Origin: Parabacteroides faecis
Lineage (GTDB): Bacteria; Bacteroidota; Bacteroidia; Bacteroidales; Tannerellaceae
NCBI RefSeq assembly: GCF_014647375.1
Contig: NZ_BMPB01000001.1
Location: 310,001 to 374,000 of the forward strand
Reading direction: 5' to 3'
Length of the DNA stretch: 64,000 bases
In this document: piece by piece, positions 10,743-28,163 of the stretch
Layout: each line of letters opens with the position of its first letter
Numbering within the stretch: position 1 is the stretch's first letter
Position numbers and translations under genes: made by a program
The notes under the pieces: generated by a model
The model's database searches: none
Told to the model about the DNA's origin: nothing
What the model saw: the letters and a program-made list of their open reading frames with translations, nothing else

Positions 10743-10759
10743 ATTTATAAGTTTGATAT

Positions 10760-10870
10760 AAAAAAGGCTGCCTCATAAAGCAAACCCTTATAAACAATTA
10801 AAGCCTGTCTCACGACAAGCCCTAACCAAACTTTGTTAACCTTAAATCTAATACTATTATGAAAAAACCA
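10760..10870 (-). ncRNA. Small RNA family, copy 1
   Basis: Minus-strand transcript of about 110 nt predicted from a consensus promoter on its right and a Rho-independent terminator on its left. The body is nearly identical to copies 2-4 (22.77, 24.71 and 28.02 kb). In order from the 5' end: a U-rich segment antisense to ATTATGAAAAAACC, then a conserved AAGGTTAACAAAGTTGG stretch. Next is a 10-bp hairpin closed by a GTGA tetraloop (about 10801-10824), then the terminator hairpin (10766-10786) and a T tract (10760-10765). It lies downstream of the alpha-galactoside locus. No protein is expected from it. Confidence 0.75.
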
Positions 10871-10875
10871 CAGTA

Positions 10876-10906
10876 CAAAGATACAGGAATAAAGGGCTTT
10901 TGTCAA
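10876..10906 (-). promoter_or_regulatory. Promoter of small RNA copy 1
   Basis: Minus strand: TTGACAA (10900-10906), 20 bases from TTG to the -7 box, then TATCTTTG (10876-10883). The boxes are conserved in all four copies while the spacer sequence is free to vary. Confidence 0.8.
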
Positions 10907-10984
10907 GTCTTTTCTGACTAATAAACGTTAAGCAGAACACTTATTCCAGTCAAATTTTGTTATCGAACACAAAACTATATAGAT

Positions 10985-11045
10985 TACAATCAAATTCTAC
11001 TAAAATTAACAGCCTAGAGCCCTAATTTCAGTAGATTTGATTGTA
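10985..11045. terminator. Long inverted repeat at the end of the alpha-galactoside locus
   Basis: Arms 10985-11007 and 11024-11045 are complementary over about 20 of 23 positions around a 16-base loop, directly after the last gene of the locus (stop at 11058, minus strand). There is no proper U tract, so it may stabilise the 3' end of the mRNA rather than terminate alone. Confidence 0.5.
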
Positions 11046-11057
11046 TCGACATGGATC

Positions 11058-13400
11058 TTATTTTATGAACTTCAAACATTCGGAATCCTGTGGGGAAGTG
11101 ACTGCCTGAACCAGGAATATACCTTTGGGCAGATCAGCAATATTGATGTCATAGCAGGTTTGCGAAGATAAAGCAGGATACTTTTTCAGTAACGCTCCCT
11201 GTGTCGAGTAGATAAGAATATCTTTCAGTTCTTTTTCCGTCTGTATAAACAAATGATCGTCCTTTACCCAGCCGGTTATCTTTCTATCCGGCGTAGTAAG
11301 ATCGGACACACCCGTTCCCGTGCCTTTCTTATCTATTCTGTATAACTTCACACCAAAATTAGGTAAAGAGAAAGGAATTTCTTCACCTTTCAGCGACACG
11401 CCCTGACCAGTCCAGAGCTCTTTAATACCTTTCACATCGGAAGAAGCGATTCCCAGTCGTGACAACTTGATATCTTCCGAGACTGATTCAGCTTTATAAT
11501 TAAATGCAGCGACATACATATAATCATCCGTATCCAACATAAAAAGACTCTCGCCACGGTTCCTTCCCCAACTGTTTTTACCTGAAGCCGTGGCACCTTC
11601 CACCGGGTAAAAAGATTTACCGATGCGCGCAATTTCGTTCACGTCGGCATTCGTCGCAAACTTTTCTGCTTTCTGGCGGGCAGCGAGATCCCCTATACAA
11701 GTTCCTTTCTGGCTGAAATTATCACCGAGAATATAAGTTCCCGTGATCACTCCCGATGTAATACGCATACGGTTTTCATCTTCATTATAAGCATCTTTAT
11801 GAAGAACCAGATGGTCGGCATCATTGAAGTTGTAGACCTTGTCGAGCCACCAGCCAAAAGAAAGTCCGTTCATTACATATTCCGTATCTTCCTTAGCTCC
11901 CCAGGCATCGCAACTGATACGGCGGGAGTTCCCGTATTGCGCAGGAAAGGCAGGAGCAATGGATAAAGCCATGAACATGTCATCCCCGCACAATTCCGTC
12001 AGATACTTCATACCACTGTTATAAGCCTGCACACCGGTCGTAACGCTCTTATCGTAATAAGAGTCCGCTTCAAGAATTGCATTGTTCAGGAAGTCGAATT
12101 TGATGTATTTATATCCCAACTCTTTAAAACGGTTGATGAAGTAACTCATCCGTTCACGGGTACCGGGATGGGTCGGGTCTAACGCACGGGAAGCAATCTT
12201 CTTCGGTTTTCCGTTCACATAGAGGTAAGCGTCTCCGTATCTGTAGCTGCTACCTTCCATAGAACGGCTACCGTCTTCTCCCCAATCGGAGAAAGGAGAC
12301 CAATAGATGCCCGGAACCTGTCCGTTATCGACACATTGCTTGGCAAATGTCTTCAACTGATAATCGTTCAGGTTATCCCAGTAAGAATCGAGGATCACAT
12401 AAGCCGTGCCGTCATTATTGAAATGATTCGGTTGCAGGTTCGTACTGATATAATCGGATACATCGAGAGCACCGGTAAAATTCAGCTTCTCGGCCATTGC
12501 GCCCCAACTGTTCCATCCGAAGATATTTCCTTTCGCCCATTTACGGGGAGGAGCAACCAACGCATTTGCTTCGCCGTATGCTTCAAGCCCTTTGCGCCAG
12601 TCATCGAACATGCCGACCAGGAGTTTCGGAGATTTCAGTTTCGTACCGGAGATGCTGCCGTGAGGTTTTGAACCTTCGGCATCGATATCGTGGGTAAGGC
12701 GATGGCTGATCCCGCCAAAACATTCCAGGCGGTTCAACTGCTGGTTGCCGGAGGTAGAATAGCGTACGCCGGTCTTCCATGTATCATGTTCAACGGAACC
12801 GAGCACCAGTCCTTCACGTGTATCACCAGAATAGATGGAAGTGACCTCGAAAGAAACAGAGTCTACCGACAATGCCAATGAGGAATAACCGATCCAGGCA
12901 TCATTGTCGAACGGTACGGATAAAACCCGGTTGGAGGCATTTGCATTCAGGAAAGAGCTGGTCGTTTCTGTGACAACCGGAGCAATATAATTACTTGAGG
13001 TTGCAGTCTCCGAAACGATATAGGCTTCTGTCAGAAAGTAACTTTTATCCGGATAGAAATAGAACGACTGTTGCAGAGCCGGTTTTCCATCGTGTGCTGC
13101 ATAGGTAAATGTGTATTTATGTCCGGCACCGAAGACATCATCGACAGTTTCTTCCGAAAAAGCAGGCTGTCCGTACTCCGTGCTTCGCAACCATGTTTCC
13201 TTCTCTTTCGCCTGAACAAAAACACCCGCCAATATGGTCTTTTCCTTATGGATAAAGTCGCATGTCTTTGTTCCTTCATTATAAACGATCTTCCAGCTAC
13301 CGGAAGCGATCACTTGCTGTTCACCTGCAAAAGCCTTTGCCCCCAACAAGAGACATACAAGACCAAAAAGCAGGGATGTTCCTGTTAAATTATTTTTCAT
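11058..13400 (-). CDS. Clan GH-D alpha-galactosidase-like glycosidase with T9SS-like C-terminal domain
   Basis: 780 aa with a signal peptide (MKNNLTGTSLLFGLVCLLLGAKAFA). The N-terminal beta-sandwich is followed by a TIM barrel with GWNSWGA, YWSPFSDWG, the likely nucleophile strand KYIKFDFLN and RRISCDAWG, which resembles the GH27 acid/base segment. DADHLVL closes the barrel. It is a paralogue of the protein at 18375-20372. The last 80 or so residues (from about 700) look like a type IX sorting domain, with ILIYSTQGALLKKY and ADLPKGIFLVQA. It is the distal gene of the locus, behind a terminator and a palindromic repeat array. Exact GH family and linkage are inferred. Confidence 0.75.
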   Translation of the reverse strand: MKNNLTGTSLLFGLVCLLLGAKAFAGEQQVIASGSWKIVYNEGTKTCDFIHKEKTILAGVFVQAKEKETWLRSTEYGQPAFSEETVDDVFGAGHKYTFTYAAHDGKPALQQSFYFYPDKSYFLTEAYIVSETATSSNYIAPVVTETTSSFLNANASNRVLSVPFDNDAWIGYSSLALSVDSVSFEVTSIYSGDTREGLVLGSVEHDTWKTGVRYSTSGNQQLNRLECFGGISHRLTHDIDAEGSKPHGSISGTKLKSPKLLVGMFDDWRKGLEAYGEANALVAPPRKWAKGNIFGWNSWGAMAEKLNFTGALDVSDYISTNLQPNHFNNDGTAYVILDSYWDNLNDYQLKTFAKQCVDNGQVPGIYWSPFSDWGEDGSRSMEGSSYRYGDAYLYVNGKPKKIASRALDPTHPGTRERMSYFINRFKELGYKYIKFDFLNNAILEADSYYDKSVTTGVQAYNSGMKYLTELCGDDMFMALSIAPAFPAQYGNSRRISCDAWGAKEDTEYVMNGLSFGWWLDKVYNFNDADHLVLHKDAYNEDENRMRITSGVITGTYILGDNFSQKGTCIGDLAARQKAEKFATNADVNEIARIGKSFYPVEGATASGKNSWGRNRGESLFMLDTDDYMYVAAFNYKAESVSEDIKLSRLGIASSDVKGIKELWTGQGVSLKGEEIPFSLPNFGVKLYRIDKKGTGTGVSDLTTPDRKITGWVKDDHLFIQTEKELKDILIYSTQGALLKKYPALSSQTCYDINIADLPKGIFLVQAVTSPQDSECLKFIK

Positions 13401-13440
13401 GACCTATTATTATATTAGTTTGATTCGGTTTTTTATTAAA

Positions 13441-13473
13441 CAAAACACCGGGCAAAGACATGCCTTCCCGGTG
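13441..13473 (-). terminator. Intrinsic terminator between susD and the distal glycosidase gene
   Basis: CACCGGG (13446-13452) and CCCGGTG (13467-13473) form a GC-rich stem; on the minus strand it is followed by TTTTGTTT. It sits inside the locus, upstream of the gene starting at 13400, so expression of that gene needs read-through or its own promoter. Confidence 0.65.
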
Positions 13474-13526
13474 CTTTCTCCTTTTACAATCCTTTTGCCT
13501 TTAGTTTATTAAATTTCAATCAATTA

Positions 13527-13647
13527 CAGTTTCCTCGTAGTTTCGCTATTTGGAAACTGTAGTTCTCTGCGGAGGGAACTGTAATTTCCTGCCTGGGAAA
13601 CTCTAGTTTCCTAAGGAGGAAACCGGAGTTTCTTCCCTAGGAAACTG
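13527..13647. repeat. Array of palindromic 22-bp units
   Basis: Four consecutive 22-bp units (13560-13581, 13582-13603, 13604-13625, 13626-13647) and one longer 33-bp unit (13527-13559). Most units have the form AGTTTCC, about 8 bases, GGAAACT, with small changes, so each can fold on itself or pair with its neighbours. It lies in the 3' untranslated region of susD. There are no unique spacers, so it is not a CRISPR array. Confidence 0.7.
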
Positions 13648-13661
13648 AAGTAACTTTACAG

Positions 13662-15239
13662 TTATCTGTATCCGGGGTTCTGATCATCCTGAGTCATGTC
13701 CGGATTCTGTTCGATCTCTTCGTTAGGGATCGGATAACGAACGTTATAATCCTGGATCGTACCTGAGCGTTTCGCCCATTTGTTGCGTGCTTTGATATAC
13801 TCAACGAATTTGCCTGTACGGATCAGATCGGCACGACGCCAGTTCTCACCCAGAAACTCACGCATACGTTCATCCATGATCTTCACACGGAAGTTATCCT
13901 GAGACATACCTGCATCCCATTTCTTATCAGCCGGGATATTAAAGCCCCATGCACGGTTACGCACTTCATTCACCTTTTCTACCGCCTGTCCGGTTTGTCC
14001 TAATTCATTCAGACATTCGGCATAGCTAAGAAGGACATCCGCATAACGGAGAGCCGGGATATTCTTCCCTGAGTTCCACATATTGTTGATACCCAAGCCT
14101 GAATACTGGTCGGTACGATAATCTTCATATTTCTTTACGTGCGGTTTCAATTCGTCATGGTCTTCACCCAGATCTTCCCAAGCAACACATTCGTAGTTAG
14201 GGACTTCACCATGATACGTAAAGTCGTAACGGATACTTTCCTCTTTACGGACATCACCGTCTTCCCAGATACCACCGTTTTCCACCGTTTCATATCCATA
14301 TTCAGTAACAACGACATGGTCGTAACCGGCAAAGTAACAACCGTCTTTCCACCAGTTCTGCGCCACACGTGAACCGATCTGGAACTGGATCTGGTTACGG
14401 TTCGGATTATTATTGAACTGAAATTCATAAATAGATTCCGCCGTATTCGGTTTCTCGTAATTCCACAGGTCGGCATAGTTTACCAATGAATAGCCCATCC
14501 CCATTACTTTCTCGAAACATTCTTTCGCCTTGTTGAAGTCGCGCAGACCGGTTTCTACCGGAGCAGACATATAAGCCTTACCCAACATCGTATAGCCGGC
14601 ACCGGAAGTTGCCCGTCCAGCCGTATTTGTCTTAGGAGCATATTTAGCCGCTTTTTCCAGGTCATTGATAATAAACTGCCAGACATCGGTCAAAGACTGA
14701 CGGCCGTAGCCGGTTTCTTCCAGCTTATCCAGGTCGATGATAGGTATTTCACCCCAGTATAACGCCAGTTCATAATCGACGAAACCACGCACGAAACAGG
14801 CCTCACCCAACAGTTCAGCTTGTTTGGTTCCTTCTGCCAGATCAGGCGTATCCAACGCACGGACGATCTTGGCAGCAGCGGTAACTATCGGGAAACGTTT
14901 GTTCCACTGATCTTTCACCTTGCTATGCAGGGAGTTCATATTGGCATCGTAACGGTCCATAGCCGCTCCTTCGCCACCCCCTTTATTCTGTAATGCACCG
15001 CGCTGTATTTCGTCGGTACCGGTCATCAGGAACCAGGCACGTTCATCCTGGCGGGTATTGTCACGCCAAGTATTATAGATACCCTTCAGATTCAGTTCGA
15101 TAAACTCTACATCTGAATAGATCTGCTCTTCTGTCAATGCTTTCTTGTTTTCCTGTGTCAGGAAATCGGAACAAGATGTGGTGATTCCGGCAGTAAGCGC
15201 CAAAGCCAGCAATCCGATCAAATTATATCTCTTTTTCAT
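13662..15239 (-). CDS. SusD/RagB-family glycan-binding outer-membrane lipoprotein
   Basis: 525 aa. The signal peptide ends in the lipobox ITTSC (cysteine about 23), giving a surface lipoprotein. SusD-like sequence follows: FLTQENKKALTEEQIYSDVEFIELNLKG at the start. The conserved C-terminal part contains IPALRYADVLLSYAECLNELG, REFLGENWRRADLIRTGKF and the ending QNPGYR. It partners with the SusC encoded 21 bases upstream. The start region ATTATGAAAAA is complementary over 11 bases to the conserved 5' part of the small-RNA family, the best match I saw among genes in this window. Confidence 0.92.
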   Translation of the reverse strand: MKKRYNLIGLLALALTAGITTSCSDFLTQENKKALTEEQIYSDVEFIELNLKGIYNTWRDNTRQDERAWFLMTGTDEIQRGALQNKGGGEGAAMDRYDANMNSLHSKVKDQWNKRFPIVTAAAKIVRALDTPDLAEGTKQAELLGEACFVRGFVDYELALYWGEIPIIDLDKLEETGYGRQSLTDVWQFIINDLEKAAKYAPKTNTAGRATSGAGYTMLGKAYMSAPVETGLRDFNKAKECFEKVMGMGYSLVNYADLWNYEKPNTAESIYEFQFNNNPNRNQIQFQIGSRVAQNWWKDGCYFAGYDHVVVTEYGYETVENGGIWEDGDVRKEESIRYDFTYHGEVPNYECVAWEDLGEDHDELKPHVKKYEDYRTDQYSGLGINNMWNSGKNIPALRYADVLLSYAECLNELGQTGQAVEKVNEVRNRAWGFNIPADKKWDAGMSQDNFRVKIMDERMREFLGENWRRADLIRTGKFVEYIKARNKWAKRSGTIQDYNVRYPIPNEEIEQNPDMTQDDQNPGYR

Positions 15240-15260
15240 AATTGTAATCCTTTTAAATCA

Positions 15261-18200
15261 TTAAAAACTAAAGTTCAAACCAAATACATACATTTTTGTC
15301 GGAGGATATCCGTAATCGCCTGTTTCAGGATCGAAGCCTTTATATTTGGTTGCACAGAACAGGTTGGATGCTGTGAAGTAAACACGCAGGTTTTCCACTT
15401 TGAGCTGGCTCAACAAAGGTTTCGGGAATGAATAAGCCAATGTCAGTGTAGACAAACGCAGATAAGAGGCATTCTGGATCGTGTAATCCATATCGGACGG
15501 ATTATAACGGTTATAACCGCTGGTCGTATTGGCAATCACACGCGGAACGGAAGCACCGGTATTTTCCGGAGTCCAACGGTCCAGCAGGTCGATAGACGAC
15601 ATGCCCGTACCTGTACTGTTGATCAAACCTTCGTAATATGAACTGATTTTCTTTGCACCGTAAGAATAGTTGAATACAGCATTCAAGGTAATTCCCTTAT
15701 AGCTGAAATCGGTGGCAAACCCGCCGTAGAACTTCGGATCCTTCTTTCCTACCACTGTGCGGTCAAGCTGGTCGATTACGCCGTCAGGCACACCGTCAGG
15801 GCCGGAAATATCTTGCGGGAACAAATCACCCAGGCTTACATGTTTTCCATTGAAATCCAGATTTTCCCATTCGCTACGGTTCGATTCGTTCGCGATACCG
15901 CCAGTCTTATAAGTATAAATGTTATTCAATGATTCGCCCAGGAAGATATTCTTTTCACGATCTGAACCGTTCAGGATCTCTGTCACCTGGCCATACAACT
16001 TAGACACCTCATTCTTATCGAAAGAGATATTGGCATTCACATTCCATGTAAAGTCTTTTGTCTGTATCGGAGTAGCGTTGATCGTCGCTTCAAAACCTTT
16101 ATTCTTTACAGAACCGATATTTTCCCATGTTTCACTGTAGCCGGAAGTCAACGGCAGAGAGTGTTTCATCAACAGATTATCATTCTTTATAAAGAATCCG
16201 TCCAGAGAAACGTTCAAACGGTCATTGAGGAATGCCATATCGACACCGATATTGGTTTGTTTCTGTTTTTCCCAGGTAATAGCAGGCGTACCTCTCAAAC
16301 CGCTGGTTGCGTAGGAAGCTTCGCCGTTGCTGACAGAAGAGAAATACAATGTACGATATGCATAGTTTTCGATATCCTGGTTACCAACCACACCATAACC
16401 TACACGGAACTTCATCCGGTCGAAAATAGTCTGGTCTTCCATGAACGCTTCATTCGTTATATCCCATGCGGCAGAGAAAGAAGGCAGGATACCCCAGCGG
16501 TGGCCTTTGGCAAACTTGGAAGAACCGTCGTAACGGGCCGTTGCCGTCAGGTAGTAACGCATATCATAGTTGTAGTTCACTCTACCCAGGACAGAAACGA
16601 GGGTATTGCCCTTGAAGTCAGAATCGAGTTCTTTCTTATCGTTAGCGGCAGCACCTTTCAGGTCATACCACAGCAAATCGTCGCTGGCATAACGGTCGCC
16701 CTGTGCTTTAGTATAGTTTTCCGAGTTCTTGGTCGTACTTGTACCGAACAGGAAGTTCATGCGGTGTTTGTTGATCGTCTTGTCGTAAGTGATCGTATTA
16801 TCCCACTGCCAGTTCAACTGTGACCATCTTTCGTGTTTTGCTCTCGCATCACCGTTATAGTGACGGATAGCTTCCTGGATATAGCTCGGTGTATATTCGA
16901 ACCAGGTCTGTGAAGAAACATCCAATGCGAACGTAGAACGGATATTCAGCCCTTCGATCGGATTGATGTTGATATAATTGGAAGAAAGGAAACGGTTACG
17001 GGCACGTTCGCGGGCTACTTCCTGCGAGTTGAACGGGTTGTAATCGTTATTGTTTCCTTCGTTGTGCACACGGTAGTACAATGTCAGATAATCCCAGGTG
17101 TAACGGGTTGCCGGATCTTTGTAAGGTGCCGGATTCAGCAGCGGGTTTGCATTCAGCGCCTTGTCATACACATCGTCTGTCGGCAGGTTATTTTCCGTAC
17201 GGGAGAAAGAAGAGTTCGTACCGACCTTCAACCACGGTTTGATCATCGATTCCGCATTGATACGTCCGGAATATTTCTTTTCTTTCGAATCACCGATCAG
17301 ACCGTCGATATTGGCATAATCGAAGCTGATGTAAATATTGTTCTTTTCCGTTGCATTGGAGAAGCTTACGGAGTGGTTCTGCTGGAAACCGGTGCTTGCC
17401 ACCTCATCCAACCAGTTATAGCTCTGACCTGCATTGTGAGTGGCGAACTCCTCATCGGAGAAAGCGGTATTCGTTTTCATCAATGTGTTATTGATGTAAT
17501 CCTGACGGTTTGCCGTAGGATTGTCCTGCATGTACCCATTGGCAAAAGCATCTATACGCAGGTCGAACAACTGGGAAGCATCCATTGTCTTCGGACGCTG
17601 GGTAATTTTTGAGAAACCTACCCAACCGTCGTAAGTAACACGTCCTTCGCCTATTTTACCTTTTTTGGTCGTGATAAGAACGACACCGTTGGCACCACGT
17701 GATCCGTAAAGGGCTGTAGCCGAGGCATCTTTCAACACCTGTACGGAAGCCACATCGTTCACATTGATGGCGTTAAAACCGCCGTAACCGTTGCCCATAA
17801 CCAAACCATCGACAACGTAGATCGGATCTGAACCGGAATTGATCGTATTCACACCACGAATCTTGATACTTGAATCGTCACCCGGACGAGTTCCTTTAGT
17901 GATCAAAACACCGGCTACACGTCCCTGAAGGGCTTCATTGACGGTCGTTACCGGGCGTTCTTCCAACACTTTCGCGTCGACATGCGCAATAGCGCCTGTC
18001 AGGTCGCTTTTCTTCATGGAAGCACCTACGATCACTACTTCGTCGATAGATTGTGAGTCTTCTGAAAGTGATACGTTGATCACGTTCTGGTTACCGACTT
18101 TTACTTCCTTGGTGTCATATCCGATATAGCTGATCACCAGGGTGGCGCCCGGTGAGGCTGTCAAAGAATATTTTCCATCCATATCCGATATAGTCCCTTG

Positions 18201-18353
18201 CGTTGTTCCCTTGAGAACAACGCTCGCTCCCGGGAGCGACTCCGACGTTTTTGCGTCGGTGATCGTACCTGTAATTGTTATGCCTTGTGCGAAAACGGTA
18301 CCGCAGCATACTACAAGCATCATCAAAATACTAAAAACCTTGATCTGTTTCAT
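15261..18353 (-). CDS. SusC/RagA-family TonB-dependent transporter
   Basis: 1030 aa from ATG at 18353; the signal peptide MKQIKVFSILMMLVVCCG begins there, so seven upstream codons are excluded. CarboxypepD_reg-like domain (about 27-105, ITGTITDAKTSESLPGASV), plug with IDEVVIVGASMKKSDLTGA and IKIRGVNTINSGSDPIYVVDG, then the barrel ending in YVFGLNFSF. In the alpha-galactoside locus it lies 21 bases after the glycosidase gene at 18375 and 21 bases before susD. It should carry alpha-galactosyl oligosaccharides; that substrate is inferred from the flanking enzymes. Confidence 0.93.
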   Translation of the reverse strand: MKQIKVFSILMMLVVCCGTVFAQGITITGTITDAKTSESLPGASVVLKGTTQGTISDMDGKYSLTASPGATLVISYIGYDTKEVKVGNQNVINVSLSEDSQSIDEVVIVGASMKKSDLTGAIAHVDAKVLEERPVTTVNEALQGRVAGVLITKGTRPGDDSSIKIRGVNTINSGSDPIYVVDGLVMGNGYGGFNAINVNDVASVQVLKDASATALYGSRGANGVVLITTKKGKIGEGRVTYDGWVGFSKITQRPKTMDASQLFDLRIDAFANGYMQDNPTANRQDYINNTLMKTNTAFSDEEFATHNAGQSYNWLDEVASTGFQQNHSVSFSNATEKNNIYISFDYANIDGLIGDSKEKKYSGRINAESMIKPWLKVGTNSSFSRTENNLPTDDVYDKALNANPLLNPAPYKDPATRYTWDYLTLYYRVHNEGNNNDYNPFNSQEVARERARNRFLSSNYININPIEGLNIRSTFALDVSSQTWFEYTPSYIQEAIRHYNGDARAKHERWSQLNWQWDNTITYDKTINKHRMNFLFGTSTTKNSENYTKAQGDRYASDDLLWYDLKGAAANDKKELDSDFKGNTLVSVLGRVNYNYDMRYYLTATARYDGSSKFAKGHRWGILPSFSAAWDITNEAFMEDQTIFDRMKFRVGYGVVGNQDIENYAYRTLYFSSVSNGEASYATSGLRGTPAITWEKQKQTNIGVDMAFLNDRLNVSLDGFFIKNDNLLMKHSLPLTSGYSETWENIGSVKNKGFEATINATPIQTKDFTWNVNANISFDKNEVSKLYGQVTEILNGSDREKNIFLGESLNNIYTYKTGGIANESNRSEWENLDFNGKHVSLGDLFPQDISGPDGVPDGVIDQLDRTVVGKKDPKFYGGFATDFSYKGITLNAVFNYSYGAKKISSYYEGLINSTGTGMSSIDLLDRWTPENTGASVPRVIANTTSGYNRYNPSDMDYTIQNASYLRLSTLTLAYSFPKPLLSQLKVENLRVYFTASNLFCATKYKGFDPETGDYGYPPTKMYVFGLNFSF

Positions 18354-18374
18354 AATTGATAAATTTAAGAACAT

Positions 18375-20372
18375 TTAGTTGTTTTCTATCTTGTAAAGCA
18401 ACGCATCCCTGGCGGGGACCGTCACTGTGAGTTTTTCCTTGACAGGCTGTTCATATCCACTCCAGAGTTCTCTTGCCCTGTAAGTAACCGTCGGCTCCAA
18501 TCCGAGGCGTTCAAGCAAAACTGTGGCATTCATCTCATCTTCCGAATAATTAAAGATAGCGAAATAAGATGATCCGTCTGCATCATGGCGAATAAATTGA
18601 TTTTCAGAACGTTCTCCATTTCCTTCCACCGGAGCGAATGAAATACCTCTGGCGACATCATTCACTCTTTGGTTGGTCATGAATTTCAGAGCGCGGTCTT
18701 TGTCGATCTGTTTGCCGCCCTTACTGAAATCGTCACCAACGATATACAAGCCGGTAATAGCACCGGAAGTCATACGGGCCCGGTTCTCGCCTTCGGTCGC
18801 TTCGCGCAGCACCAGGTGGTCGGCATCGTTATACTGGTACACCTCATCCTGCCACCAGCCGTAAGAAAGGGCATTCAGCGTGTATTCGGTATCTTTGATC
18901 TTATTCCAGGCATCACAGGCAATACGGCGTGAATTAGCGTAATGAGCCGGGAATACAGGAGAGATAGACAGATTGATGTACATGTCGCCGAAGTATTTGT
19001 TCAACAGCTGCATGCCGTAGTTGTAGGCCTGGATACCTGTCCGGATCTCCGGATTGTACCATTTGTCGGCTTCCATCGCCCCGTGTGTCATAAAGTCCAT
19101 CTTCACGTATTTGAAACCGCAACGATGGAATAGCTCAGACGTTTTCTTCATCATTTCCTCAATAGCCGGATGAGTCGGGTCGATCGCATAGGCACCGTCC
19201 AGTTCCTGCGGCTGGCCATTCGCATACAGATAAACATCTTTATACTTATAATCAGGAGCATCCTTGATGGTCCGATCCGGACGTCTGCCCCAATCGGTAA
19301 ACGGCGTCCAGTATACGCCGGCAATCTGTCCGTTAGCCGTACAATGATCTACGAAATCTTTCAGTTCTTCATCCTTAAAGCTATTCCAGCCGGAGTCGAG
19401 GCCGATCGTCACATTGCCGTCGGGATTCACAAAATGGTTGTTCTGCAAATTATCCCTGAAGAAATCGGACACCTCCAGCGCCTTCTGGTAAGTCAGCTTG
19501 AACTGAAGTGCACCCCAACTGTTCCAACCGAACGTAACGGCACCCGGCCATTTCTTCACGGGAGCTACTACAGCATTCGCTTTTCCGTATTCTTCCAGTC
19601 CGGCACGCCAGTCATTAAAGAAACCGACAAAGACCTTCGGCGACTTCACTGTTTTCCCTTTCAGGCTACCATGTGCTTTCGAATCACGTGTCAGCGTATC
19701 GGCAACACCCCCGAAACAAACCAGCGAACCGATATTGCTGCGGTCGCCTTTGACCATATCGATACCTGTCTTCCAGTCGGAATGCTCTACCGAACCGATG
19801 ACAAGACCTTTACGATCCTTATTATTGAATACGGTAGCCACTTCATAACTACGCAACTGATCGAAAGTCAGCGGATGAGACTGATAACGAATCCAGCAAT
19901 CGTTATCGAAAGGCTGGAACAACGCACGGTTATCCCCTTCGGCGAGTAAAGCAGGCATACGATCGATGTTGACCGGAGCCATATAATTCGATTCGACATC
20001 GGCATTCCCTCCCTGAAGGGTAAATTCCGTCAACAAATAATCTTTCTCCGGATAGATGTAGAAAGATTGCACCAGTGTAGGCAGGTTGCTATCGGTATAG
20101 GTAACCTGTAATAACGATCCTTCGCCGAATGCATCGCTGATAGCGGTTGCTTTCGAGCGACTACTCCTGTAGTCACGGGTTGTGACCAATTTGTCGCCTA
20201 ACTTATACGAAGCGTAGACCCCATCGGAAAGAAGCTGGCTCTCTTTTTCGATACGGTGGCCTTTCTGCTCCTGATCGTAGCTGACCGTCCATTTCCCCGA
20301 AGAGACGGAAGGTTCGCTACAGGATACAACAAGGGCGAGCAATAGCAGCAGATTTAAATTGATGAGTTTCAT
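18375..20372 (-). CDS. Clan GH-D alpha-galactosidase-like lipoprotein
   Basis: 665 aa. The signal peptide ends in the lipobox VVSC (cysteine 18), so it is membrane-anchored. The layout matches the paralogue at 11058-13400: beta-sandwich, then a barrel with FGWNSWGAL, YWTPFTDWG, KYVKMDFMTHGA (likely nucleophile Asp) and RRIACDAWN, and DADHLVL. It lacks the type IX-like tail of the paralogue. The gene is tightly packed between GH36 (17 bases upstream) and susC (21 bases downstream). Alpha-galactosidase activity is inferred from fold motifs and neighbours; other alpha-linked sugars remain possible. Confidence 0.75.
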   Translation of the reverse strand: MKLINLNLLLLLALVVSCSEPSVSSGKWTVSYDQEQKGHRIEKESQLLSDGVYASYKLGDKLVTTRDYRSSRSKATAISDAFGEGSLLQVTYTDSNLPTLVQSFYIYPEKDYLLTEFTLQGGNADVESNYMAPVNIDRMPALLAEGDNRALFQPFDNDCWIRYQSHPLTFDQLRSYEVATVFNNKDRKGLVIGSVEHSDWKTGIDMVKGDRSNIGSLVCFGGVADTLTRDSKAHGSLKGKTVKSPKVFVGFFNDWRAGLEEYGKANAVVAPVKKWPGAVTFGWNSWGALQFKLTYQKALEVSDFFRDNLQNNHFVNPDGNVTIGLDSGWNSFKDEELKDFVDHCTANGQIAGVYWTPFTDWGRRPDRTIKDAPDYKYKDVYLYANGQPQELDGAYAIDPTHPAIEEMMKKTSELFHRCGFKYVKMDFMTHGAMEADKWYNPEIRTGIQAYNYGMQLLNKYFGDMYINLSISPVFPAHYANSRRIACDAWNKIKDTEYTLNALSYGWWQDEVYQYNDADHLVLREATEGENRARMTSGAITGLYIVGDDFSKGGKQIDKDRALKFMTNQRVNDVARGISFAPVEGNGERSENQFIRHDADGSSYFAIFNYSEDEMNATVLLERLGLEPTVTYRARELWSGYEQPVKEKLTVTVPARDALLYKIENN

Positions 20373-20389
20373 GTATTGATAATTAAATA

Positions 20390-22594
20390 TTACTGTTCTG
20401 TAATCAGCAGGACCGTACTTTCATACGTATTCCCGATTGTCAGGCTGATACCGGCATTCATCAGATAATCACCGGGGAATACCTGCCCGTCGCCGTAGAA
20501 GGAACTGTTTCCGGCTTTATTCAATTCAGTGATCTTATATATTTTAGCCGGATCCAGTCCTTTCAGTTTGGTCTCAAAGAATGTTGTACGTCCGTGATAT
20601 TTCAGGCTGTAAGCAAAAAATACAGATTCCTTTTTATCTTTGGATATATACATATGCGAAGCCCATCCGGTTCCGTCGTAAGGCGATTTGAGACGATAAA
20701 GATCGCCCAGCTGTACGATCGGGCGGATACGTTTATAGTTCTTTATGGCCTGTTCTGCAAAAGGCAGTTCATCACCTGTCAAATCTTTCGGTTGCAATTC
20801 CATACCCAGACGCCCCGTCATGGCAACATCGAAACGGAATTTCAGCGGTGCCATCATACCCGTTTGATGGTTCGGAGTGGTCGAAACATGGGAAGCAGTG
20901 GCTTTTGCCGGGAAGAAAAGATTGGTGCTGTACTGGATGAATATACGGTCGAGCGAGTTGGTGTTATCGCTTGCCCAGAACTCATCGTGATATTTCAAGG
21001 CTCCGAAGTCCAGGCGGCCGCCACCGGCCGAACACAACTGGATCATAACATCCGGATGCTTTGCACGGATCCGTTCGTAAGCACTATACAGTCCTTTTAT
21101 ATACTCGATCCAGAAATGGGTCTGATCCTCTTTAGAAAGGTAATCGGAACCGAAATTGTCAACGTGGCGGTTCGCATCCCATTTAATATAGGAAATATGA
21201 GGAGACAAAGCGATTACATCGTCAAAAGTCTTCACCACAAAATCCTGTACAGCCGGATTGCTCAGATCGAGCAACCATTGGTTACGCATCGGGATAATAT
21301 CACGCTTACCGCTCTTTACAATCCATTCCGGATGCTTTTCTGCCAGTTCACTCTTTGGACTTACCATTTCCGGTTCGATCCAGATGCCGAATTTCAGTCC
21401 TTTATTTACTGCATACTTCGCCAGATAATCGATCCCGCGCGGTAATTTTTTCTTATTTACCTGCCAGTCACCCAAACCGACCTTATCCGAGTTACGCGGA
21501 TATTTGTTGGCAAACCATCCGTCGTCGAGTACGAACATTTCAACACCGAAAGCAGCCGCATCATCGATCATATCCGTGATTGTCTTCTCGGTAAAGTTAA
21601 AATAAGCACCTTCCCAACTGTTCAGGACGATCGGCAATTCCTGATCACCATGAGCCAATGCATAGTTACGCGACCAGTCGTGCAGATTTCTGGAAACCTG
21701 TCCTTTACCGGTAGAACTATATGTCCATACCATTTCCGGGGTTTGCAATATTTTACCCGGTTCCAGATTATAAGTAGAGGCAAAATTATTCATACCGGTC
21801 AACACATGCAGCATGCCGCATTCATCCACTTCAAAAGAGGTCAGATAGTTGCCCGACCAAGCCAGTGAACCAGCATAGACTTCACCCATATCTTCATAAG
21901 CCGGTCCGTTCAGAGACAACAGGAAAGAAGAGTTTTCAGACTGCGTGGTCCGTATGCCTTTCTTGGATTCCACCCGTTTGACACCGGGAGTCAGTTGCTC
22001 TTCCACCAATTGCATTTCAGAGGCCCATGCGCCATGAAAATGAGTCAGATAGTAAGAGTCTGCATGTAAGGGAAGATAAGCGGAAGATATATTTTCGACA
22101 GCCAGCCGGGTCTTTTCCTGATGAGAGATGGAAACAGACTGACAGATCACATTTTCCTTTTGGTAAGCTACAAAATTGAGATTGACGAAAACCGGGTACA
22201 AAGGATCTTTCAACTGTATTACGGTTTCTATTCTATTATTATCGATATTCTTTACGGTATGGTCCGCATATATCAATTCTGTAGTCTGAACGCCGTCATT
22301 ATGCGTCAGCTTCAATGCCGGATTCAGGAAAAGGCGTCCTCCGTAAGCAGGATAGATTACCGGAGCATAACCAATACCGTTATCCGGTTGTTCTTTATAC
22401 TTCTTATTAAGGAAAGGGGAAACATGCCGGAATTTATCTCCAAAATAGTTATATACTACTTTTTTATCCGAAGAGATAGAAAAGATCATGCTCAAGTCAT
22501 TTGTAGAGACGGATATGATGTCCGCATCTTTCTCCTGGGAAGAAACATTCATACACCCCAGTAAAAGGGCTACAGTTAACAATAGTGCTTTCAT
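20390..22594 (-). CDS. GH36 alpha-galactosidase
   Basis: 734 aa. It removes terminal alpha-galactose from oligosaccharides such as the raffinose family. Clear GH36 motifs: FVLDDGWFANKYPRNSDKVG, FGIWIEPEMVSPKSEL, nucleophile Asp in YIKWDANRHVDNFGS, and the acid/base region QLCSAGGGRLDFGAL followed by EFWASDNTN. The N-terminus is exported (MKALLLTVALLLGCMNVSSQ). It can be read either as a lipobox at LLGC or as signal peptidase I cleavage after SSQ, so anchoring is uncertain. It is the first gene of the locus and thus probably sets its expression. Confidence 0.92.
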   Translation of the reverse strand: MKALLLTVALLLGCMNVSSQEKDADIISVSTNDLSMIFSISSDKKVVYNYFGDKFRHVSPFLNKKYKEQPDNGIGYAPVIYPAYGGRLFLNPALKLTHNDGVQTTELIYADHTVKNIDNNRIETVIQLKDPLYPVFVNLNFVAYQKENVICQSVSISHQEKTRLAVENISSAYLPLHADSYYLTHFHGAWASEMQLVEEQLTPGVKRVESKKGIRTTQSENSSFLLSLNGPAYEDMGEVYAGSLAWSGNYLTSFEVDECGMLHVLTGMNNFASTYNLEPGKILQTPEMVWTYSSTGKGQVSRNLHDWSRNYALAHGDQELPIVLNSWEGAYFNFTEKTITDMIDDAAAFGVEMFVLDDGWFANKYPRNSDKVGLGDWQVNKKKLPRGIDYLAKYAVNKGLKFGIWIEPEMVSPKSELAEKHPEWIVKSGKRDIIPMRNQWLLDLSNPAVQDFVVKTFDDVIALSPHISYIKWDANRHVDNFGSDYLSKEDQTHFWIEYIKGLYSAYERIRAKHPDVMIQLCSAGGGRLDFGALKYHDEFWASDNTNSLDRIFIQYSTNLFFPAKATASHVSTTPNHQTGMMAPLKFRFDVAMTGRLGMELQPKDLTGDELPFAEQAIKNYKRIRPIVQLGDLYRLKSPYDGTGWASHMYISKDKKESVFFAYSLKYHGRTTFFETKLKGLDPAKIYKITELNKAGNSSFYGDGQVFPGDYLMNAGISLTIGNTYESTVLLITEQ

Positions 22595-22770: not shown

Positions 22771-22883
22771 AAAAAAGGCTCGCATCCGAAAATGCAAACC
22801 TCTATAAAACATTAAAGGCTGTCTCACGACAACCCCTAACCAACTTTGTTAACCTTAAATCTAATACTATTATGAAAAAACCA
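22771..22883 (-). ncRNA. Small RNA family, copy 2
   Basis: Same architecture as copy 1. The terminator hairpin GGTTTGCAT/ATGCGAGCC (22777-22800) is fully paired with G-U pairs and followed by six T on the minus strand (22771-22776). In the central hairpin one C-G pair of the other copies is replaced by G-C, a compensatory change that supports the fold. It ends about 180 bases upstream of the GH36 start and so flanks the 5' side of the alpha-galactoside locus. Confidence 0.8.
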
Positions 22884-22888
22884 CAATG

Positions 22889-22919
22889 CAAAGATACACT
22901 CACGACAAGTGTTTGTCAA
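22889..22919 (-). promoter_or_regulatory. Promoter of small RNA copy 2
   Basis: Minus strand: TTGACAA (22913-22919) and TATCTTTG (22889-22896) with 20 bases between TTG and the -7 box. The spacer repeats the hairpin sequence CTTGTCGTGAG of the RNA body. Confidence 0.8.
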
Positions 22920-23040: not shown

Positions 23041-23838
23041 TTACAGGGAAAGGCGTTCTTTAAGCAACCGATAGCCGGTCAGACTGGCACGCAAACAGAC
23101 ACCTGTTTTCAAACGAACCTGGTAACTGTCTTTCCCGAACAATTCCACACGGATGATCTCCCCGCTATTCACGATACAAGACCGGTGAATACGGATAAAA
23201 GCATTTTCCGGCAGATGCGTTTCAAAATATTTCATCGTCTGTTCCTTGACATATTGGCCTGTCGAGGTGAACAACGTCACATAATCGCCGCTTGCCTGGA
23301 TATAGAGCAGTTCGTCCAACCGGATCAGATGGATACGGGTGCCGTCTTTCACAGAGATACGATCCAGTAACGCTTCTTCAGGTGGCAGTGATGTTTCAGT
23401 CTCAACAGAAACAAGAGAATCCTCAGACGGTTCTTCTTTCCGAATCTCCTTCCAGCGAATAAAATACCATTGAGCCAGAATAATCCATCCCAGCAGACCA
23501 AACAGAAAACGGAAAGGGATAGTCGAAGCAAACCATTCCATCCGACCGGGACAAATCAATGTCCCCACCATATACCCTCCTATAGTAGAAATCGCCAGGA
23601 CACCGATGGTTAATGCGATCTGGGCCTGTATCGGACGCAATACTCCGGTAACATACCAGAGCAGAAAACCGGAAACAGAGAATAACCCTACCGAAACCAG
23701 ACTGTCAAGCCATGCAAGCAGCCACCCCGTATGTTCGTAGTAATACAACAACAAGGCCCCTGTGCAACAAGCGATCGATGCCAGCATGATACCGGCAATC
23801 CTATAAAAGACAGAGTTTATAAACGGATGCGTCTGCAT
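23041..23838 (-). CDS. Membrane-bound LytTR-family DNA-binding regulator
   Basis: 265 aa from ATG at 23838; a TTG two codons earlier is less likely. Four membrane segments (about 10-33, 43-64, 70-92, 102-123) are followed by a short acidic linker. A C-terminal LytTR domain covers about 155-265 (RISVKDGTRIHLIRLDELLYIQASGDYVTLFT, ENAFIRIHRSCIVN). It resembles membrane-anchored LytTR regulators that sense envelope state rather than phosphorylated response regulators, since no receiver domain is present. It starts 2 bases after the stop of the LiaF-like gene, so the two are one operon and probably one sensing unit. Confidence 0.87.
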   Translation of the reverse strand: MQTHPFINSVFYRIAGIMLASIACCTGALLLYYYEHTGWLLAWLDSLVSVGLFSVSGFLLWYVTGVLRPIQAQIALTIGVLAISTIGGYMVGTLICPGRMEWFASTIPFRFLFGLLGWIILAQWYFIRWKEIRKEEPSEDSLVSVETETSLPPEEALLDRISVKDGTRIHLIRLDELLYIQASGDYVTLFTSTGQYVKEQTMKYFETHLPENAFIRIHRSCIVNSGEIIRVELFGKDSYQVRLKTGVCLRASLTGYRLLKERLSL

Positions 23839-23840
23839 AA

Positions 23841-24569
23841 TCAACTTTTGAATTCGATTCCGCCAAAAGTAGCATTTCCGCGTACCACCAATACATGCTC
23901 GTTATCCATGTTTACAGAAGCATTGAAACGTTTATCTTCACAGCCTCCCATCAGGGTACGGACATTAAAATGAAGCCGCCAGTCATTGGGTACATATATT
24001 TCCACCCCGGCAAACGTACAATCGATGTCAATATAGGTCCGCGGACCTTCCAGCTTTGTTCTTCGCAAATCCAGAATGGTTCCCCCGAACAAAACCTTGA
24101 TCCGTGCTCCTTTGAAAACCGGATCCAGAATAATCTGCTCCACGGAACTAAACGTATTATCCGATTCCACATAACCGTCTATATTGATAAATTCACTTTT
24201 TGTACCAGTGTCTGCCTCGTTACCTGTCGTTCCCCCTCTATTTTTCCAATGAGTATTGTTTTTCTTCCGTGGCGAAAAGAGTATCACGATACCGGCCAAC
24301 ACCAGAAGTAGCGGCCAGATAGTCATTCCACTGCCATCCATCCAGTCCAACTCAGGCATCAGAAAGTATAGTCCGAATAAAAAGGTGATCAATCCTCCGA
24401 CATACTGGCGGGAAAAAAAGGTAGAAACTCCCACATACATCACCAGCATCTGCCAGGATACTATAATATCAAAGATATCGGTAGCAATCATACCCATGTT
24501 CTTCAGTAACCATACAATCCCGACTACGATAAACGGGATTGCCCAAAAGATGTTTTTTCTAAGATTCAT
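23841..24569 (-). CDS. LiaF-like membrane protein
   Basis: 242 aa. Four or so hydrophobic segments occupy the first 100 residues (FWAIPFIVVGIVWLLKNMGM, ISWQMLVMYVGVSTFF and following). A soluble C-terminal domain follows with the LiaF/cell-wall-active antibiotic response pattern (EQIILDPVFKGARIKVLFGG, DIDCTFAGVEIYVP, VRTLMGGCEDKR, VRGNATFGGIEFKS). Proteins of this type dampen cell-envelope stress signalling in other bacteria. The LytTR gene directly downstream suggests it controls that regulator. The operon has its own consensus promoter. Confidence 0.8.
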   Translation of the reverse strand: MNLRKNIFWAIPFIVVGIVWLLKNMGMIATDIFDIIVSWQMLVMYVGVSTFFSRQYVGGLITFLFGLYFLMPELDWMDGSGMTIWPLLLVLAGIVILFSPRKKNNTHWKNRGGTTGNEADTGTKSEFINIDGYVESDNTFSSVEQIILDPVFKGARIKVLFGGTILDLRRTKLEGPRTYIDIDCTFAGVEIYVPNDWRLHFNVRTLMGGCEDKRFNASVNMDNEHVLVVRGNATFGGIEFKS

Positions 24570-24595
24570 AATCTGTATTGTTTAAATGTTTGAAA

Positions 24596-24626: not shown

Positions 24627-24710
24627 GAGAGAAACGTCCTATTACAGTCAAAGATCGGTGAATCGCCGAAAATAACCGACAAAAAAAGGAAATATTCAGT
24701 GCAGAAAAAC

Positions 24711-24825
24711 AAAAAGGCCTGCATCTGTCCTGAATGCAAACCCCTATAAACAATTAAAGCCTGTCTCACGACAAGCCCTAACCAACTTTGTTAACCTTAA
24801 ATCTAATACTATTATGAAAAAACCA
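24711..24825 (-). ncRNA. Small RNA family, copy 3
   Basis: Same body as the other copies. The terminator hairpin GGTTTGCAT/ATGCAGGCC (24716-24742) is fully paired and is followed by five T, a G and five more T on the minus strand. It lies between the LiaF-like operon and the DUF417 gene. Confidence 0.78.
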
Positions 24826-24830
24826 CGATA

Positions 24831-24860
24831 CAAATATACGGCTTAATCCAAATTTGTCAA
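24831..24860 (-). promoter_or_regulatory. Promoter of small RNA copy 3
   Basis: Minus strand: TTGACAA (24854-24860) and TATATTTG (24831-24838), 19 bases between TTG and the -7 box. The region beyond (about 24864-24960) is similar to the matching stretch of copy 4. Confidence 0.75.
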
Positions 24861-24964
24861 GGGGTTTTATGCTAAATCATGTTTCGTGTCGTATAAGAAA
24901 AGCTAACAAGTTTCAATATGTTTATTTTTTACTTCCGAAGTGTTAAAATAAACACTTTTTGTTC

Positions 24965-25549: not shown

Positions 25550-25660
25550 GTCTTTCTTTGTTTATCAGTTTAACTTATGATGCAAAGATCTGACATTTTT
25601 ACCCCATAGGAAATGGCAATTCTGCCGGATAACTTGACAATTATTCCCTAAGACACAATA

Positions 25661-25699
25661 AAACCGGTTAACAGAGGCTTATTTCCCCGTTAACCGGCC
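25661..25699 (-). terminator. Terminator of the radical SAM gene
   Basis: CCGGTTAAC (25664-25672) pairs perfectly with GTTAACCGG (25689-25697); on the minus strand TTTTATTG follows. Confidence 0.8.
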
Positions 25700-25719
25700 T
25701 TATTGACAACGAATTATTT

Positions 25720-26934
25720 TTAATTACGTATTCCCAGTTCTACCAGTTTCTGTTCGTCCAAAGCATACTTCCGTTCGATGCTCTGCAACAAGTCTTCACT
25801 GATATCCAGCGGACGGTTCAGTTTCTTCATTTCGCGGTATCCTTTATATACATGGGTGATCATCTTACGCGGATTGAAGACCAGCGATGAAGTGATCCAG
25901 CATCCATGCGTACACCAGCAATTCGCCTTATCCCCATGACCGATAGCAGCGATCTCCTGCTTCATGGCATCACTCTGCATGATCTTAGCGATATTACAAT
26001 CGTAATCCTTTACATTACCGATCGGCTCGCGAAGCTCGCAGGCACGGAAACGGCCGTCATAGTCGATCACCAAGGTGGTCTCTCCCGCCGTACAATCCAT
26101 TCCCCAGGGAGTCGGATGATCGATATTGGTCGCACGTACATTATATAATGTACGGATGAAGCCCAGATAGAAGAAACGGGCAATCGGTTTTCTGAAGCCA
26201 CCGGTCTCTTCCGCCATACGTTCCCCATAGACATTATAGATAGGCACAACCTCGTCCTGCAAAGCACGTAAAGTAGGTTCGGTAAGCACCTTCACCCCGT
26301 CGTCGCGCGTCATTCCGCGTGCAGCCTCGATAATATGGTTGGACAGATGGAAACGGCCTAAAATCCAAAGCATCAAATCCTGTACCTCCTCCAGGTTATA
26401 TTTTGTAATTACGGTGGCAAGGTTTTTCAGCACCCTGCCGTCGTCAGCAAAGTTTTTTTCAATCATCTTCAACGTCCCCATCGCTTTGTAGAAGTTACCG
26501 GGGACACCGCGCTGTATATCGTGTGTATCACCGAAACCGTCCAATGAAAGACTGAGGTTGATATTCAGTTCCGGACAATTCCGACGGATTTGTTTTACCC
26601 AGGCAATGATCCGGTCGGGCTTCAATCCGTTGGTAGGAATGTTCACGTCTTTTATCTCGTTATTCTTATAGAACATCTCTATAATTTCAGGTAATTCCTC
26701 ACGCAGTGTCGGCTCACCGCCGGATACCCACAAACGATTGAACTGTCCGGCTGTTTCGGAGATCTTCTTTATTTCTTCAAAAGTCAGGTCTTTTTCTTTT
26801 TTATCCATGTCTTCCGCATAGAAGCACATTTTACATTTGGCATTACACCGCCCTGTGACAAACAGGAAAACAGATTCTAATTTTCTGTTTGTGCTCATTG
26901 TTCTGAAAGAGCTCTTTGTTCGTTTTGTACCCAT
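25720..26934 (-). CDS. Radical SAM protein with SPASM-like C-terminus
   Basis: 404 aa; ATG at 26898 (12 codons in) is an alternative start. The radical SAM iron-sulfur site is CNAKCKMC (about residues 30-37), followed by WVSGGEPTLREELPEI. The C-terminal region holds further cysteines (MDCTAGETT, ACELREP, ANCWCTHGCW) that look like an auxiliary cluster of the SPASM or twitch type. Such proteins modify peptides or small molecules, but no precursor peptide or partner is visible nearby, so the substrate is unknown. Single gene between divergent promoters and a strong terminator. Confidence 0.8.
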   Translation of the reverse strand: MGTKRTKSSFRTMSTNRKLESVFLFVTGRCNAKCKMCFYAEDMDKKEKDLTFEEIKKISETAGQFNRLWVSGGEPTLREELPEIIEMFYKNNEIKDVNIPTNGLKPDRIIAWVKQIRRNCPELNINLSLSLDGFGDTHDIQRGVPGNFYKAMGTLKMIEKNFADDGRVLKNLATVITKYNLEEVQDLMLWILGRFHLSNHIIEAARGMTRDDGVKVLTEPTLRALQDEVVPIYNVYGERMAEETGGFRKPIARFFYLGFIRTLYNVRATNIDHPTPWGMDCTAGETTLVIDYDGRFRACELREPIGNVKDYDCNIAKIMQSDAMKQEIAAIGHGDKANCWCTHGCWITSSLVFNPRKMITHVYKGYREMKKLNRPLDISEDLLQSIERKYALDEQKLVELGIRN

Positions 26935-26994
26935 TGTTATTATGATTAGATTTCTCTATTAGTATTAGCTCCCATATCTTATTAAGCAGACAGA

Positions 26995-27002
26995 CAAATA
27001 TA
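26995..27002 (-). promoter_or_regulatory. -7 element for the radical SAM gene
   Basis: TATATTTG on the minus strand, about 60 bases upstream of the start. At the -33 position only CTG is found. Confidence 0.45.
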
Positions 27003-27138
27003 TACCATACCCATAAATCTATCAGCCAGACTTGAAAACATTCGCAAATTTCACCTATTATATATCATAAAACAATCTCCATTTGTGGGATTCGATGTTC
27101 TATATTTAAGAATATCAGTCAGAAAATCTAAATAGTCT

Positions 27139-27146
27139 TATATTTG
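27139..27146 (+). promoter_or_regulatory. -7 element for the AraC gene
   Basis: TATATTTG, exact consensus, 27 bases upstream of the ATG at 27174; the -33 region has no TTG. Confidence 0.45.
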
Positions 27147-27173
27147 TACATTTAAAATAGTGGAGATAACAAC

Positions 27174-28019
27174 ATGGAAGACAACATTCCTAAATTCGAC
27201 ATTCCTCTGGATTTTATCGTCGGAGACAGCATTACGGGTGAAATATTAAATCAATACGGCCGCTTCCCCTGCAAGATCAAAGCCGGTGTTTTTGTGCTTT
27301 GTGTACAGGGCAGTGTACAGGCCACCGTCAATCTGACAAAATTTATTATCAAACCCAATGATTTCATTACGCTTCCTCCGGGATGTTTTATCCAGATACA
27401 CGAAGTATCCGACGATGTCAAACTATGTTTTGCCGGATTTTCTTCTACGTTTGTGAGTCATATCAACTATATCAAAACTATCACGAACTATCTGCCCGTT
27501 ATCTTCGACAGCCCGGTGATGCCTCTGCCCGTACCGGTCTCCCAGTTATACCAGGAGGCTTTTTCCTTGCTGATCAAGGCGTATTCTTTGCCTAAGACCA
27601 TCGAGAACAAAGAGATCATAAAGGCTATCTTCACCATCTTCATGCAAGGAGTAATCGAACTGTATAAAAACCATACGCCATATAGCAATGCTCCGATGAC
27701 ACGCAATATGGAGATATGCCGCGAGTTCGTGCAGCTGGCGATGGAGAACTATACGAAAGAGCATAGCGTCTCCTATTATGCCAAGCGGCTTAATATCACC
27801 TTGCAACATTTCTGCTACGTAATAAAGAAAGTCAGCGGACGAACCGCGTTGGATATCCTGAGCAATATCATTATCATGGATGCGAAAGCACAGCTTAAAT
27901 CAACCGATATGCCGGTTAAGAAGATTGCATTCGCTCTGGGTTTCGACAACCTGTCGTTCTTCAATAAATACTTCAGACAACACGTGGGAATGACCCCTCA
28001 GGAATACAGGGAGAGCTAA
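27174..28019 (+). CDS. AraC-family transcriptional regulator
   Basis: 281 aa. The N-terminal half (about 20-110) looks like a cupin-type sensing domain (VFVLCVQGSVQATVNL, FITLPPGCFIQIHEV). The C-terminal AraC DNA-binding domain (about 185-281) has two helix-turn-helix motifs, VSYYAKRLNITLQHFCYVIK and VKKIAFALGFDNLSFFNKYF, ending in MTPQEYRES. It is divergent from the radical SAM gene and may control it. Its stop codon overlaps the terminator tract of small RNA copy 4 on the other strand. The ligand is unknown. Confidence 0.9.
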   Translation: MEDNIPKFDIPLDFIVGDSITGEILNQYGRFPCKIKAGVFVLCVQGSVQATVNLTKFIIKPNDFITLPPGCFIQIHEVSDDVKLCFAGFSSTFVSHINYIKTITNYLPVIFDSPVMPLPVPVSQLYQEAFSLLIKAYSLPKTIENKEIIKAIFTIFMQGVIELYKNHTPYSNAPMTRNMEICREFVQLAMENYTKEHSVSYYAKRLNITLQHFCYVIKKVSGRTALDILSNIIIMDAKAQLKSTDMPVKKIAFALGFDNLSFFNKYFRQHVGMTPQEYRES

Positions 28020-28128
28020 AAAAAGGGATATGCCGGATGCAAACCCCTATAAACAATTAAAGCCTGTCTCACGACAAGCCCTAACCAACTTTGTTAACCT
28101 TAAATCTAATACTATTATGAAAAAACCA
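28018..28128 (-). ncRNA. Small RNA family, copy 4
   Basis: Same body as copies 1-3. The terminator stem (about 28025-28046) has one internal mismatch and ends in seven T on the minus strand (28018-28024). Two of those bases belong to the stop codon of the AraC gene on the plus strand, so the two transcription units converge and overlap at their ends. Confidence 0.75.
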
Positions 28129-28133
28129 CAGTA

Positions 28134-28163
28134 CAAAGATACAGGTATTCTCCAACTTGTCAA
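28134..28163 (-). promoter_or_regulatory. Promoter of small RNA copy 4
   Basis: Minus strand: TTGACAA (28157-28163) and TATCTTTG (28134-28141), 19 bases between TTG and the -7 box. Confidence 0.8.

Follow-up and report, generated by a model that had tools for sequence, protein, structure and literature searches.

Four FopS-like genes in a window of Parabacteroides faecis

We analyzed a 64,000-nucleotide (nt) stretch of the Parabacteroides faecis genome (G000, 6.66 Mb; C1:310001-374000), referred to here as the window, which carries four closely similar elements on the minus strand, named c1 to c4, the first two lying on either side of a polysaccharide utilization locus (PUL). Their membership in FopS, a family of small RNAs (sRNAs) known from Bacteroides thetaiotaomicron, is well supported, and we consider it probable that they are trans-acting FopS-family sRNA genes of a particular seed class, termed the AAUA class, which would block the translation of SusC-type or PUL-first genes.

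Each copy consists of two promoter boxes, a conserved body and two hairpins, and was scored with the FopS model RF04319 (BTncRNA_FopS; curated cut-off 56 bits) of Rfam release 15. Copy c1 occupies positions 10757-10906, with TTGACAA (-33 box) at 10906-10900, TATCTTTG (-7 box) at 10883-10876, a putative RNA start at about 10871, hairpin 1 at 10797-10827 and a second terminator hairpin at 10763-10789 (53.9 bits, covering 10871-10788). In copy c2 (22771-22919), the two boxes are at 22919-22913 and 22896-22889 (TATCTTTG), with the RNA predicted from about 22884, hairpin 1 at 22811-22841 and the second terminator at 22775-22802; this is the sole window copy above the cut-off (59.0 bits). Copy c3 (24711-24860) carries TTGACAA at 24860-24854 and TATATTTG at 24838-24831, followed by an RNA from about 24826, hairpin 1 at 24753-24783 and the second terminator at 24715-24743 (55.2 bits). 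The corresponding features of copy c4 (28018-28163) are TTGACAA at 28163-28157, TATCTTTG at 28141-28134, an RNA from about 28129, hairpin 1 at 28056-28086 and a second terminator with one internal mismatch at 28024-28048 (55.2 bits).

The positions, strand and promoter boxes of all four copies agree with the initial annotation of this DNA, which had been made from the sequence alone; other details required adjustment. The box spacing of 19-20 bases given there holds when counted from TTG to TA, whereas the distance from TTGACAA to TAT is 15-16. The body, described as nearly identical over about 110 nt, is identical over GTGGTTTTTTCATAATAGTATTAGATTTAAGGTTAACAAAG and nearly identical up to about position 91, while the last ~25 nt diverge. 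Hairpin 1, which forms 13 pairs (about -16 kcal/mol) and is followed by an interrupted U tract, is present in all four copies. The second hairpin, which carries a T tract, reaches -8.5 kcal/mol in c1, -14.5 in c2, -12.7 in c3 and -10.8 in c4, so that the earlier description of the terminators as always well paired applies to c2 and c3 but somewhat overstates the pairing of c1 and c4.

A coding function of the four RNAs was considered and rejected: the longest closed frame comprises 13 codons from a TTG and would be broken by one-base indels that some relatives have in the loop of the hairpin, and a frame of 18-19 codons starting at a GTG extends past the RNA 3' end.

Relationship to FopS and other Bacteroides RNA families

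The initial annotation had pointed to a resemblance to FopS and proposed a search of the body against Rfam as a check; this search returned RF04319 for all four copies, which match the model end to end (model positions 1-71). According to the available text of PMC11697453, B. thetaiotaomicron has 14 FopS copies and the species reported have 12-15 per genome, conservation being reported within the Bacteroidaceae. The same text describes bile-salt-induced RNAs whose 5' end pairs with SusC start regions and represses SusC translation, as found in vitro, and which are bound by RbpB, an antagonist of this repression. Parabacteroides does not appear by name in the main text of that paper as available, is named only in the reference list in the available text of PMC7366714, and FopS is absent from the main text of PMC10861873; among the literature matches listed, no title concerned a Parabacteroides RNA of FopS type.

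The window copies share with FopS the R1' seed GUAUUAGAUUUAAGGUUAA near the 5' end, the layout of a 5' seed part followed by a hairpin and U tract, promoter boxes of canonical type, many dispersed copies and complementarity to SusC starts. They differ from it in several respects. Their seed reads CAU-AAUA-GUAUUAG instead of the published CAU-G/A-GUAUUAG; the RNA up to hairpin 1 measures ~82 nt, compared with published clusters of ~65 and ~70 nt (PMC11697453); and some AAUA copies have an additional terminator. By analogy with the published family, a FopS-like function of the window copies is likely.

Two further families were compared. BTnc231 (RF04180) gives a weak match to c1 only, with 32 bits against a cut-off of 80.4. 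GibS (RF04182), in which an R1 seed and a central hairpin precede a second region, R2, and a terminator, offers a similar hairpin-plus-terminator layout and weakly matches all four copies; these matches, at 33.7-45.9 bits, stay below the cut-off of 115, and GibS is reported to have a PM2 promoter of non-canonical type together with an R2 seed (PMC11697453), whereas the window copies carry canonical boxes. An identity as GibS-type RNAs is thus very unlikely.

Beyond the window, the FopS model yields 18 matches in the P. faecis genome at E ≤1 and 12 at E ≤0.001, and seed searches identify seven AAUA copies and four canonical ones (CAU-G-GUAUUAG or CAU-A-GUAUUAG). The seven AAUA copies share an identical 22-mer, and allowing up to 3 mismatches revealed no additional site; two of the seven exceed the Rfam cut-off and five fall below it. 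Those outside the window lie at C1:162345, C2:369904 and C6:133424, and no second terminator was found at the first two. All 39 genomes of the genus that were searched contain a FopS match above the cut-off. A diverged FopS-like gene of P. faecis (C6:115876; 32.3 bits) carries a TATATTTG box of its own as well as a strong, separate 3' hairpin that bears a T tract.

Distribution of the AAUA seed class

The exact AAUA seed occurs in 8 of 295 Bacteroidales genomes, belonging to four families, and 54 of 295 carry the seed once any spacer from 0 to 8 bases long is allowed; only the AAUA and one-base spacings appear among the matches listed for the latter pattern. In a collection of named records, at least 117 stretches carry the AAUA pattern, assigned to Parabacteroides, Tannerella, Massilibacteroides, Proteiniphilum, Seramator, Porphyromonas macacae, Azobacteroides and Symbiothrix, or to records named just to family, order, class or phylum; the names Bacteroides, Phocaeicola and Prevotella are absent among the matches listed. 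Judged by their sequence, the window copies constitute a distinct and highly conserved FopS sub-type whose recognition sequence is altered. With a second seed class in other families, this layer of control over sugar uptake would become broader, and the presence in one cell of two classes with different start-codon ends would allow seed specificity to be tested in a natural setting.

No AAUA seed was found in the viral contigs searched. The canonical FopS seed is present in 13 viral-contig stretches, and a phage copy of FopS is also mentioned in the available text of PMC11697453.

Conservation of promoter, seed and hairpin among relatives

Copies of the AAUA class were gathered with a 27-base pattern allowing ≤2 mismatches, so that conservation inside the pool is selected, and only copies with 110 bases of upstream and 200 bases of downstream sequence were kept. 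Merging rows equal over 100 bases reduced the pool from 149 to 146 copies; c4 was merged with a copy from genome G038 and was folded separately. The -7 box, TAnnTTTG, is found in 141 of these 146 copies, at one fixed position in 131, against 2.0 in shuffled upstream regions, and thus exceeds chance. A TTG at a gap of 15-21 bases from this box completes the canonical Bacteroides promoter (TTG ... TAnnTTTG) in all four window copies and in 132 of 146 relatives, the latter figure being without a shuffle control. The exact -7 box is missing in 5 of 146 copies, a point that bears, as regards the promoter, on the transposase-linked copies without promoter and terminator that the initial annotation had listed as grounds for refutation.

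Outside the 25 collecting bases of the pattern, seed positions 14-15 and 33-36 are invariant, positions 37 and 38 vary in one of 146 copies each, and positions 1-5 are kept in 133-143 of 146. Hairpin 1 forms in 146/146 copies (mean -16.5 kcal/mol). In an alignment of 96 of them, one per distinct hairpin stretch (A2), 96.2% of cells are paired, both sides have changed in 11 of the 13 pairs, and the covariation score of 0.515 compares with 0.183 for shuffled and at most 0.138 for slid alignments; RNAalifold recovered the same 13 pairs. The second terminator is present in 19 of 146 copies, scattered over the pool, with seven from this species, P. goldsteinii and genome G038 and the rest from other species. 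Because hairpin 1 occurs throughout and the second terminator only in this minority, the RNA end at ~110 nt given in the initial annotation is best seen as an addition, the family-wide structured end being that at hairpin 1 (~82 nt). The idea that the second terminator compensates a broken U tract was not supported, as it accompanies 15 of 95 copies whose longest U run is shorter than 5 and 4 of the 51 in which this run is longer (Fisher p 0.21).

These data bear on a reading in which the elements are repeated DNA, a recombination border or mobile repeat that makes no functional RNA and whose copies are alike through copying or gene conversion. The direct repeats c1 and c2 around the PUL, and five relatives with one copy and no PUL at that place, speak for it. 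A -7 box held mostly at a single position, a hairpin with double compensatory changes, a seed that is nearly invariant over several families, and copies at conserved places all oppose it and make it highly improbable compared with sRNA genes.

Further upstream motifs were observed. TTAGCA lies ahead of the -33 box, for example at window positions 28173-28178, in 31 of 146 AAUA copies versus 1.3 expected from shuffles. By eye, the canonical P. faecis copies at C2:103812, C18:51557 and C18:51771 have no TTGACA box, and the inverted repeat that immediately precedes their -7 box (TTATGCTGCATAA in two copies) is a possible regulator site.

Complementarity to SusC start regions

Predicted pairing of both seeds with SusC start regions (-40 to +20) was compared with that of 60 dinucleotide shuffles per seed. 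The sets comprised 56 scored SusC genes of 207 candidates in P. faecis, with the window's own SusC outside the set, 30 of 56 listed in genome G004, and 29 of 30 fetched (56 listed) in genome G203. In P. faecis, the AAUA seed reaches a mean of -16.5 kcal/mol, compared with -10.3 for its shuffles (z -9.5), and the canonical seed -14.8, compared with -10.6 (z -8.5). Both seeds also beat all 60 shuffles in G004 and G203 (z -4.7 to -6.8). For stretches upstream or inside the same SusC genes, the AAUA seed gives z -1.9 and -1.2. SusC starts pair with this seed better than do 63 Lys/Arg-rich starts (p 4e-7), and energies of at most -18 kcal/mol are reached by 20 of 56 SusC starts versus 15 of 258 other starts, or 18 of 258 if each gene is given whichever of two starts pairs better. 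These 258 include a few SusC; removing proteins over 900 amino acids left the 238 starts that were compared with shuffled seeds. No FopS seed with ≤3 mismatches was found within 1.5 kb of SusC at 60 loci, 30 each in P. faecis and G004, which fits action in trans.

The local PUL contains two candidate targets, both on the minus strand. Its first gene, a GH36 alpha-galactosidase (20390-22594; Pfam PF02065), has a start region with a predicted duplex of -23.4 kcal/mol for the canonical and -19.5 for the AAUA seed. The SusC-type transporter (15261-18374; TIGR04056, 883 bits) has an alternative start at 18353, where the duplex reaches -19.0 kcal/mol for the AAUA and -15.0 for the canonical seed.

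In P. faecis, the AAUA seed is favored over the canonical one by more than 2 kcal/mol at 29 SusC starts, compared with 5 in the opposite direction. The ratios are 8:6 in G004, which has AAUA copies, and 5:6 in G203, which has no exact AAUA copy; since, among the three genomes tested, P. faecis alone shows this preference, it is not general, and a general co-evolution of AAUA seed and SusC was rejected. Dividing the SusC genes by the length of their N-terminal part did not sharpen the preference (20:3 versus 9:2).

Three weak matches of the FopS model in P. faecis (C1:392924, C1:51757 and C16:45970; 24.3-26.6 bits) resemble, by eye and on the opposite strand, gene leaders ending in ATG; they are perhaps target mimics instead of sRNA genes.

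Proposed mode of action

The features described above are compatible with the following model. Each copy is probably read from its own promoter of sigma-ABfr type. The 5' ~38 nt would act as an antisense copy of the common SusC leader, with CAU over the AUG start codon and AGAUUUAAGG over the upstream leader, and this pairing would prevent translation from being initiated on several SusC or PUL-first mRNAs. In c2-c4 the seed has a mean unpaired probability of 0.70-0.77. An RRM-1 protein of RbpB type may modulate the pairing. The ancestral 3' terminator is probably hairpin 1, with an RNA of ~82 nt as its product; in the window copies, read-through of this hairpin would extend the RNA to the second terminator, for a length of 112-116 nt. 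The model predicts transcription, intracellular pairing, repression, a protein partner and isoforms; the sequence, promoter pattern, covarying hairpin, distribution and complementarity enrichment are observed. Four RRM_1 proteins, candidate RbpB-type partners, are encoded in the P. faecis genome.

Several observations weigh against this model. Three of the four window copies fall below the Rfam cut-off by 0.8-2.1 bits (E ≤4.4e-5), and the seed of c1 is only about half unpaired (mean probability 0.49). The two-isoform idea depends on a second hairpin found in a minority of copies, with no tie to a broken U tract. Ordinary starts also beat all 60 shuffled AAUA seeds (238 starts, z -3.2), as do the 63 Lys/Arg-rich starts (z -3.8); part of the signal therefore reflects the A-rich leader and ATGAAA start. 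CAU is placed on AUG in 39 of 56 SusC, 117 of 238 other and 45 of 63 Lys/Arg-rich starts, and, being equally frequent in the last group, was discarded as proof of targeting.

A further reading is that the copies are FopS by descent and that most targets of the AAUA class are now genes other than SusC, whose complementarity would merely mirror the A-rich leaders that starts share. Strongly pairing non-SusC starts do exist, ordinary starts also pair better than shuffled seeds, and SusC genes of two other genomes do not prefer the AAUA seed. The enrichment of SusC over other starts, including the Lys/Arg-rich ones, argues in the opposite direction, and we regard such a shift as unlikely and retain SusC and PUL-first mRNAs as the predicted targets.

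Genomic neighborhood and PUL gain or loss

The gene order in the window is ProRS, FKBP, c1, the PUL, c2, LytTR, LiaF-like, c3, DUF417, radical SAM, AraC, c4 and FrdB. The PUL (11058-22594), comprising a glycoside hydrolase (GH)-like gene, SusD, SusC, a second GH-like gene and GH36, is thus enclosed by c1 and c2 as direct repeats. P. gordonii (G009) carries a copy at each of the four places and keeps GH36 and the neighboring GH, with diverged SusCD genes (55% and 42%). The PUL genes are retained in P. goldsteinii (G013), and G038 retains GH36 and the neighboring GH with diverged SusCD; c2, c3 and c4 are present in both, and the AAUA seed was not found at the c1 place in their fetched DNA. Five genomes of the genus (G002, G003, G004, G018 and G022) show a PUL-less arrangement of FKBP, a single FopS copy and LytTR. 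From these arrangements, a gain or loss of the PUL by recombination between FopS copies is suggested.

A broader picture can be offered only tentatively: Parabacteroides may run the canonical and AAUA classes side by side, the latter with its own set of SusC/PUL mRNAs and almost unaltered across Tannerellaceae, Dysgonomonadaceae and some relatives, with two RNA lengths from tandem terminators in this species and with FopS copies serving in addition as recombination borders of PUL cassettes.

The genes between c2 and c3 encode a LytTR regulator and a LiaF-like protein (23041-24569, minus strand; Pfam). No AAUA-class FopS was found beside LytTR at 27 loci outside the genus, and a role of LytTR-LiaF as a general FopS regulator was rejected, as the adjacency looks genus-specific. 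Within the genus, the LytTR gene is present in 18 of 39 genomes, and an AAUA-class copy lies within 1.5 kb of it at all 18 loci: on both sides in seven, on the c2 side in seven and on the c3 side in four.

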